Below, one piece after another: positions 8,448 through 35,645 of a stretch of DNA of 64,000 bases (position 1 is the stretch's first letter; each line of letters starts with the position of its first letter). The translations under genes were made by a program, and so were the position numbers. The notes beneath the pieces are model-generated. The model was not told the origin of the DNA. It did no database searches and saw only the letters and a program-made list of their open reading frames with translations. The DNA comes from Kribbella italica (GTDB taxonomy: Bacteria > Actinomycetota > Actinomycetes > Propionibacteriales > Kribbellaceae): the NCBI RefSeq assembly GCF_014205135.1, contig NZ_JACHMY010000001.1:1798001-1862000 (forward strand). Reading direction: 5' to 3'.

Positions 8448-8488
8448 CCCAGCGCGCCCCGCACTCGGAGAGTGCGGGGCGCGCTGGG
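8448..8488 (-). terminator. 19-bp perfect hairpin after rnj
   Basis: Bases 8448-8466 and 8470-8488 are perfect inverted repeats around a 3-base loop, lying just after the rnj stop. There is no clear U-run, as is usual for actinobacterial intrinsic terminators. Symmetry would let it act in both directions. Confidence 0.75.
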
Positions 8489-34080: not shown

Positions 34081-34170
34081 CCGGCGGGCCGCTACTGGCG
34101 TTCAGGTGGGTCACCACCGGGGAACGGCCCGCCGGATCTTCGGCTGCAGCCGCGCGCCTGGGCAACGACG
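34081..34170 (+). ncRNA. ZTP (pfl) riboswitch upstream of folD
   Basis: Bases 34081-34090 pair perfectly with 34126-34135 (10-bp P1). The enclosed loop holds TACTGGCG and CACCACCGGGGAACGG, and the 3' half holds CGCGCCTGGGCAAC. These are the conserved elements of the pfl motif that senses ZTP/ZMP when 10-formyl-THF is short. folD is one of the best-known targets of this class. The 3' boundary is approximate. Confidence 0.8.
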
Positions 34171-34202: not shown

Positions 34203-35066
34203 ATGACTTCAGACAACAACACCGCCCGGCCGATGATCGGTACCGACCTCGCCGCCGACATGGTGGCCCAGGCCGCCGTCCGCGCCAAGAAGCTGCAGGA
34301 CGAGACCGGCGTCCAGCCCTGCCTGGCGGCGGTGCTGGTGGGGGACGACCCCGCGTCGGCGACGTACGTACGGATGAAGCAGAACCGGAGCAAGAAGGCC
34401 GGCATCGGCTCGGTCAGCGTCGTGCTGCCGGCGTCGACCACCACTGAAGAGCTGGTCGCCGAGCTGACGAGGCTGTCCAACGACCCGACCGTGCACGGGA
34501 TCCTGCTGCAGCACCCGGTCCCGGCGCAGATCGACGAGCGCGCCGCGTTCGAGGCGATCGCGCCGGCCAAGGACGTCGACGGCGTCACCATGCACTCGTT
34601 CGCCGCGATGGCCTTCGGCGAGCCGGGCTTCCGCTCGTGCACCCCCGGCGGGATCCTGCGGCTGCTGCAGACGTACGACGTACCGCTGTCCGGTGCGCAC
34701 GCCGTCGTCATCGGCCGCAGCCCGATCCTCGGCAAGCCGGCCGGAATGTTGCTGCTGGCATCTAATGCGACCGTCACCTACACGCACTCGCGGACGAAGG
34801 GCCTGCCGGCACTGGTGCGTCAGGCCGACATCGTGGTCGCTGCGGTCGGCAAGCCGAACTTCGTCCGCGGTGAGTGGCTGAAGCCCGGCGCCGTCGTGGT
34901 CGATGCCGGGTACAACGAAGGCAACGTCGGCGACGTGCACGCGGAGGAGGCCGCGGCGGTCGCGAGCCTGCTCACGCCTGTGCCCGGCGGCGTCGGCCCG
35001 ATGACGATCGCCCTCCTGCTGGAGCAGACCGTCGACGCGGCGGAAGCGCAAAACGCCCGCAGCTGA
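34203..35066 (+). CDS. folD: Bifunctional methylene-THF dehydrogenase / methenyl-THF cyclohydrolase
   Basis: A 287-residue folate enzyme that interconverts 5,10-methylene- and 10-formyl-THF using NADP. Conserved segments are LVGDDPASATYVRMKQNRSKKAGI (with the catalytic Tyr and Lys), LLQHPVPAQID, PAKDVDGVT and the Rossmann VVIGRSPILGKPAGMLL, then TPVPGGVGPMTIALL. Length is standard. AAGGAG precedes the ATG. The ZTP riboswitch in its leader would raise expression when one-carbon units run low. Confidence 0.96.
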   Translation: MTSDNNTARPMIGTDLAADMVAQAAVRAKKLQDETGVQPCLAAVLVGDDPASATYVRMKQNRSKKAGIGSVSVVLPASTTTEELVAELTRLSNDPTVHGILLQHPVPAQIDERAAFEAIAPAKDVDGVTMHSFAAMAFGEPGFRSCTPGGILRLLQTYDVPLSGAHAVVIGRSPILGKPAGMLLLASNATVTYTHSRTKGLPALVRQADIVVAAVGKPNFVRGEWLKPGAVVVDAGYNEGNVGDVHAEEAAAVASLLTPVPGGVGPMTIALLLEQTVDAAEAQNARS

Positions 35067-35074
35067 CGCCGCAA

Positions 35075-35170
35075 CCCCCTTGCGTCCGAAGAACCCGCAT
35101 GCGTCCGAAGAACCCGAGGCTATAGCGCTCGGTACTTCGGACGCAGCGCGGTTCTTCGGACGTAAGGGGG
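35075..35170. repeat. Nested inverted repeat built from a repeated GCGTCCGAAG motif
   Basis: The outer arms (35075-35097 and about 35147-35170) are almost perfect complements, CCCCCTTnCGTCCGAAGAAC on one side. The inner arms repeat the same GCGTCCGAAG core and close on a CCGAG/CTCGG stem around GCTATAGCG. Two direct and two inverted copies of the core thus form one hairpin of about 96 bases. It begins 9 bases after the folD stop, so it could act as a terminator or be a small mobile REP-like element. Confidence 0.75.
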
Positions 35171-35276
35171 CGGTGGCGAGACGGGTGAGCGGCGAGGTGG
35201 CGGTCTGACCTAATGTTGAGACTGGTGTCCAGCGCCGAGGAGCGGTGCGGGACGTGGTGATCTAGGAGGCAGGACA

Positions 35277-35645
35277 GTGGCGGTACGGGCGATCCGGGGT
35301 GCCACCCAGCTGGACGCGGACGAGCGCGAGCACCTGCTCGAGCGGACGGCCGAGCTGGTCCGGGCGGTGCTGGAGGCGAACGATCTCAGCTCCGAGGACC
35401 TGATCAGCATCCTGTTCACCGTCACGCCCGACCTGAGCTCGGAGTTCCCCGCGGTGGCCGGCCGGCAGATCGGCCTGACCGACGTACCGCTGATGTGCAT
35501 GCAGGAGATCGCCGTTCCGCACGCTCTGCCGCGGGTGGTCCGGATGATGCTGCACACCGAGTCGGCGCGGTCGCGGGAAAAGATCCAGCACGTCTACCTG
35601 CACGGCGCCACCGCGCTGCGCCCGGACCTGACGGGCGCCCAGTGA
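35277..35645 (+). CDS. aroH: Chorismate mutase, AroH class
   Basis: A 122-residue trimeric-type chorismate mutase (Bacillus AroH fold) that turns chorismate into prephenate for Tyr/Phe synthesis. It starts VRAIRGATQLDADE, with the active-site arginine in RGAT, and continues with SILFTVTPDLSSEFPA and the C-terminal HVYLHGATALRPDL. GTG 35277 has TAGGAGG 7 bases upstream. Its TGA overlaps the tyrA GTG (GTGA), so product and next enzyme are co-translated. A TAATGT -10 box lies at 35211-35216. Confidence 0.95.
   Translation: MAVRAIRGATQLDADEREHLLERTAELVRAVLEANDLSSEDLISILFTVTPDLSSEFPAVAGRQIGLTDVPLMCMQEIAVPHALPRVVRMMLHTESARSREKIQHVYLHGATALRPDLTGAQ

Follow-up and report, generated by a model that had tools for sequence, protein, structure and literature searches.

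A REPIN-like family of extragenic palindromes at gene 3' ends in Kribbella, with doubled arms in one genome

Enterobacterial BIMEs are extragenic inverted units situated near gene 3' ends, some of them in tandem arrays, and have been reported to be bound as double-stranded DNA by proteins. REPINs are doublets of REP sequences that form hairpins and accompany RAYT genes (Bertels and Rainey 2011, PMC3116915). The CGTC-tagged REPs were described as commonly forming inverted dimers, mostly at convergent and unidirectional sites and frequently within less than 20 bp of the 3' end (Di Nocera et al. 2013, PMC3733652). The BIMEs of enterobacteria are named in that paper, while the words Kribbella, actinobacteria and Streptomyces are absent from its main text. 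Here, we characterize an inverted repeat found between folD and a chorismate mutase gene of Kribbella italica, within a window of 64,000 nt, and compare it with these systems.

The first-pass annotation had described four boxes of one motif, two direct and two inverted, forming a long hairpin, and this description was confirmed with one mismatch in the fourth copy. GCGTCCGAAG occurs directly at 35082-35091 (+) and 35101-35110 (+) and as an exact inverted copy at 35135-35144 (-), and the fourth copy is ACGTCCGAAG at 35154-35163 (-), identical at 9 of 10 positions; the period inside each arm is 19 nt. The hairpin, which had been placed at 35075-35170, is real, and the full inverted repeat is slightly larger (35067-35178), with arms of 48 nt each at 35067-35114 and 35131-35178 that are 81% complementary and separated by 16 nt. 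The inner palindrome GCTATAGC, also noted previously, is present at 35119-35126 inside the core. No other of the 23 inverted pairs listed in the 64-kb window (distance up to 120) was as long as the element. When folded as RNA, the plus strand of 35060-35190 reached -99.2 kcal/mol compared with -51.2 +- 3.9 for shuffles (z -12.5; 0/200 as good), the minus strand of the element reached -88.3 kcal/mol (z -10.0), and the 44-nt two-box core gave a z of -5.6 (Table 1). An Rfam search of the window matched only one tRNA and one ZTP riboswitch, with no match at the element. At 34081-34170 (+), the riboswitch (RF01750, 55 bits) immediately precedes folD and the hairpin element follows the same gene, so that folD is bracketed by two structured elements. 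Elsewhere in the window, a 19-bp inverted repeat without mismatches, whose loop is 3 nt and whose sequence is unrelated to the element, was noted at 8448-8488; this is perhaps an ordinary terminator.

Table 1. Parts of the inverted repeat and its neighbouring genes, in window positions.
Feature	Position	Strand	Remarks
Whole four-box inverted repeat	35067..35178	.	two 48-nt arms, 16-nt gap; fold z of both strands in text
Outer left box GCGTCCGAAGAA	35082..35093	+	
Left spacer CCCGCAT	35094..35100	+	spacers vary between copies as much as flanks
Inner left box GCGTCCGAAGAA	35101..35112	+	
Core holding GCTATAGC	35113..35132	+	86% majority identity over 26 copies
Inner right box GCGTCCGAAGTA	35133..35144	-	one mismatch to 12-nt consensus
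Right spacer, CCGCGCT on minus strand	35145..35151	-	
Outer right box ACGTCCGAAGAA	35152..35163	-	one mismatch
44-nt two-box core	35101..35144	.	family form in other Kribbella species
folD, upstream gene	34203..35066	+	PF02882, PF00763; stop codon ends directly before element
Type I chorismate mutase gene, downstream	35277..35645	+	PF07736

The genome-wide search for the core that the first-pass annotation had called for uncovered a dispersed family and not a motif unique to this site. Across the whole 8.9-Mb genome, GCGTCCGAAGAACC with up to 1 mismatch gave 67 matches compared with 3 for the reversed control, and these were grouped into about 27 elements by a spaced pattern and by BLAST queried with the element. 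Among the fetched loci, L065, L070 and L081 (single box matches) and L090 were not treated as elements. Two-box cores in the 44-nt layout also numbered 27 with up to 3 mismatches (control 1). We analysed 26 of the copies, leaving out the core at C1:6174474, which lies beside another copy. The usual form elsewhere in Kribbella is GCGTCCGAAGAA, about 20 variable bases and TTCTTCGGACGC, with a total length of 44 nt in 53/62 two-box copies from other species among the matches listed. A pattern two bases longer matched 0 times in this genome and 3 times in the richest genome, compared with 25 and 87 matches of the normal pattern. The 62 copies derive from 80 listed stretches of 89 that matched in other genomes, 18 from other genera (one match each) having been set aside, and four of the 62 carry the name Streptomyces. 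Because all 62 were found via an exact 10-bp arm pattern, box invariance in alignment A1 (53 of these copies, each of 44 nt, and the window element) is a product of its construction, and the conservation figures quoted below are those of this genome's 26 copies, which had in turn been retrieved through a box pattern and BLAST.

When one mismatch was permitted and the outermost base pair was unconstrained, the two-box form was found in 22/38 Kribbella genomes compared with 2/255 other genomes of the order, which had one match each. Copy number with up to 3 mismatches ranged from 0 to 99 across the 38 Kribbella genomes (controls 0 to 5), the highest being the 99 elements of G017 (control 5). The box varies in some species, G001 for instance having ACGTCC, and in that genome several family palindromes were observed in tandem, 62-63 nt apart (e.g. 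C48:12678 and 12740, C176:329 and 392). Streptomyces sp. SID13031 carries four elements (L167, L197, L201, L225), its copies being 45 nt long and not 44; long flanks resembling Kribbella surround three of them, and the record is probably a misnamed Kribbella. The family is one of dispersed, Kribbella-specific short extragenic palindromes, and we found no report of it in a search of a largely open-access library.

In its anatomy the family is REPIN-like, and the earlier guess at a REP element was largely right. Similar to REPINs (PMC3116915), its copies are dispersed and extragenic (1/88 in a called gene, 5 unclassifiable), with a less conserved, hairpin-capable spacer framed by a pair of conserved inverted ends whose distance is constant. 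Unlike the REPINs of that paper, the family in this genome numbers about 27 copies and has tandemly doubled arms, a feature we did not meet there for REPINs, and no RAYT was found in the genome (PF01797, 0 matches). GTAG was recorded at the outer edge of only 10/52 arms, and most other-species copies have TT or another dinucleotide before the box. The CGTC-tagged REPs and the Kribbella family share CGTC inside the box, inverted dimers, a location downstream of genes and the lack of a dedicated transposase (PMC3733652). The CGTC-REP unit, however, is a stem-loop of 8-9 bp (PMC3733652), whereas a single box with its spacer folds poorly here, at -2.6 (4 pairs) and 0 kcal/mol in the two box-plus-spacer stretches of the window that were folded. 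DNA uptake sequences (PMC1590033) likewise consist of a short fixed word with species variants, whose inverted pairs give hairpins close to the ends of genes. They differ in comprising more than 1000 words, many of them single, while nearly all of the 67 matches here fall in about 27 paired elements, and by our reading of the whole genome the few single matches are about equal to the control's 3. The family also resembles BIMEs in consisting of extragenic inverted units near gene 3' ends, and the BIME sequence is unrelated to it. Because a Y1 transposase, a regular GTAG tag and a single-unit stem-loop were all lacking, we use the term REPIN-like and do not file the family as REPIN, GTAG REP or CGTC REP.

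We assessed the position of 88 elements relative to genes, using gene calls from our own ORF caller as compared with the window's ORF list alone. Fifty elements were situated between convergent genes, 32 between tandem genes and none between divergent genes, while one further element fell within a called gene and five lay at locus ends. Element-free gaps of at least 60 nt comprised 22 convergent, 169 tandem and 93 divergent ones. Both the divergent depletion and the convergent enrichment were significant across all elements (Fisher exact test; p = 1.8e-12 and 6.7e-23) and in this genome alone (5e-4 and 2e-6), though these tests overstate independence since some sites are common to several species. 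The distance from the core edge to the nearest facing stop codon had a median of 10 nt in other species. In this genome the nearest stop lay at a median of 49.5 nt, the outer unit accounting for 19 of these. A longest stem of at least 12 was found in 39/62 gaps with an element, compared with 6/20 convergent, 17/150 tandem and 3/73 divergent gaps without one. One copy (L063:2281-3744) was found within a long open frame reading through it, possibly two joined genes or an element within a protein, and a tRNA-Ala gene (anticodon CGC) was noted near another (L075:2838-2911). The 309 proteins encoded beside the 88 elements formed only small clusters, by eye common families such as ABC ATPases, LacI-type regulators and SDRs, with no neighbouring factor gene recognised among them.

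The absence of divergent sites among the 82 classified copies suggests a link with transcript ends. We consider it somewhat probable that this REPIN-like family provides hairpins at gene 3' ends that are of terminator type or protect the 3' end, for transcripts from either strand, its arms having grown in this genome by in-place duplication of 19 bp. The hairpin would end or mark transcripts, on both strands where genes converge, and some factor, a candidate termination helper, may read the box sequence. Despite the strong hairpin, a scan found no T-run terminator pattern at the element, and TTCTTC directly behind the inner core was present on only 27/52 strands (both strands in 8/26 copies). 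This makes the textbook intrinsic mechanism doubtful and a box-reading helper plausible. The first-pass annotation had posed repeat and terminator as alternatives; the dispersed repeat was borne out and the either/or framing was not, because copies sit at gene 3' ends and the element may well be both.

We then consider which part of the element is conserved. Majority-base identity among the 26 copies was 93-96% in the boxes, 86% in the core, 61-64% in the spacers and 57-62% in the flanks. The idea that the element is a fossil fits poorly with boxes at about 95%, while it is the spacers and flanks that have drifted to 57-64%. Spacers paired no better than shuffles (0.571 vs 0.579). Across species, core pairing was 84.2% compared with 81.2 +- 0.6 for shuffles, and core pairs changed on both sides numbered 67 cells compared with 38.9 +- 4.8 (0/500). 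Within species, native core pairing was no better than that of swapped arms in four of five species, with VKM2527, ALI-6-A, K. monticola and this genome having 340, 181, 436 and 495 of 500 swaps as good as native; the exception was VKM2568 (6 copies; 0/500), in which native pairing was favoured. Compensatory pairing as the main constraint was therefore not upheld within species, though it is seen across species. With conserved boxes, spacers that do not pair above shuffles and swapped arms mostly as well folded as the native ones, box sequence is thus kept more than stem stability.

These same observations feed the main rival to the termination reading, a DNA-bound protein: the box duplex would be bound by a nucleoid, supercoiling or other protein, and the 3'-end location would simply be where such a site is tolerated. 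The conserved boxes around spacers that pair no better than shuffles, the swapped arms that match native folding in four of five species and the rigid box-to-box distance (44 nt in 53/62 among the matches listed, with next to no matches two bases longer) would all be expected of it. It has more difficulty with the absence of copies between divergent genes (0/82), with the lack of an excess of lone boxes, with the two-sided core-pair changes that exceed shuffles across species, and with the lack of clustering of the 26 copies along the chromosome (KS p 0.34). We regard this explanation as unlikely, albeit one that deserves weight.

To trace the history of the family, this genome's 26 sites were sought with one joined query in two relatives, G024 (FolD 92% identical) and G009 (91%), which located 20/26 and 16/26 of them, some aligned by one flank only. 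In the sister species G024, 6/20 located sites carry a two-box element without outer boxes, and a seventh shared site (L082) rests on one flank; in G009, 1/16 carries the element, likewise with two boxes. The remaining located sites had no family motif within the fetched stretch. Sixteen of the 29 unoccupied site-genome pairs were folded: 6/16 have an unrelated hairpin (z -2 or below) and 10/16 no better-than-chance hairpin. The folD-chorismate mutase gap contains the element in this genome and G024, while it is absent within 330 nt in 27 others (29/30 fetched Kribbella loci were readable). For K. monticola, 6/7 sites were located in each of two relatives, the element being kept at 2/6 in G037 and 5/6 in G017 with cores mostly altered; at one site lost in G037, an unrelated hairpin with TTTCC behind it is present. 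Sites that are kept, altered in the core or lost across relatives indicate that elements pass down by inheritance while their cores change, and that some are lost or replaced, and we read the family as largely inherited vertically. At the six shared sites, cores were not significantly closer to their counterparts than to non-orthologous ones (84/720 permutations as good), which leaves room for replacement of whole elements.

A third explanation, which we judge improbable, is that the element remains mobile, as a MITE or REPIN moved in trans by a putative transposase. Copies that are dispersed and better conserved at their ends than in between, the range of 0 to 99 copies among 38 genomes and the box that differs between species (ACGTCC in G001) are all as such movement would leave them, yet sites are common to several species, and the copies' spacers are as variable as their flanks, unlike a recent burst. 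RAYT-driven mobility was rejected because this genome has no Y1 transposase, the Y1 family alone being searched; the search was positive in 5/14 control genomes, E. coli among them, and in only 1/38 Kribbella genomes (L151, G008:C7:51482-51820). The MITE part of the first-pass proposal found no support here, nor did the flanking target duplications it had looked to. No duplication was seen by eye in 20 alignments with diverged flanks, 12 alignments with closer relatives showed presence or loss of the element and no clean insertion, and among the neighbours of the 88 elements no recurrent mobile gene was recognised by eye. Finally, a lone ordinary folD terminator with coincidental repeats would be in the right place with a strong hairpin, but it is scarcely credible and, as the sole explanation, refuted by about 27 sequence-related copies in the genome.

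What sets this genome apart is the four-box state, which is almost confined to it. The 19-nt double-box pattern gave 59 matches here. It matched twice in G024, in the two arms of a single element, and once each in G017 and G018, while the remaining 34 genomes had no match; the reversed control matched once in G015 and once in G026. All 52 arms of the 26 copies possess at least 2 boxes, and five arms have 3 to 7. Single arms have grown to 7 (L079 near 3318), 5 (L086 near 3138) and 4 boxes (L072 near 3063) while the opposite arm has 2, and adjacent units in these long arms are almost identical, as after recent slippage. Because the double-box pattern is nearly confined to this genome, two boxes are likely the ancestral state. 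Spacers resemble their own outer flank at 2.73 of 7 positions compared with 2.29 +- 0.14 for the flanks of other arms (p 0.0006, 52 arms), with identity at 7/7 in one arm, a pattern that fits in-place duplication of 19 bp comprising flank and box. The outer boxes would thus have arisen by duplication of a unit of 7-nt flank and 12-nt box, after which spacers may have drifted while boxes were retained.

The novelty lies in this doubling of arms across the set; the two-box family would be a new member of the broad REPIN/REP-like kind. A tentative interpretation, possible in our opinion and no stronger, is that the palindrome set went from two to four boxes in place at separate loci and was remodelled together, co-evolving with one putative box-reading host factor (a termination helper or a DNA-binding protein) whose binding mode changed. 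A host factor, and not a transposase, would then maintain this REPIN-like repeat. The origin and persistence of REP-like repeats without a dedicated transposase has been stated as an open question for the CGTC repeats (PMC3733652). Since related species share sites with two and four boxes, selection, inter-copy conversion and transposition as ways of maintaining the repeats make different predictions here that can be tested. These results suggest that one shared, sequence-specific family marks some of the transcript ends in a GC-rich actinobacterium.
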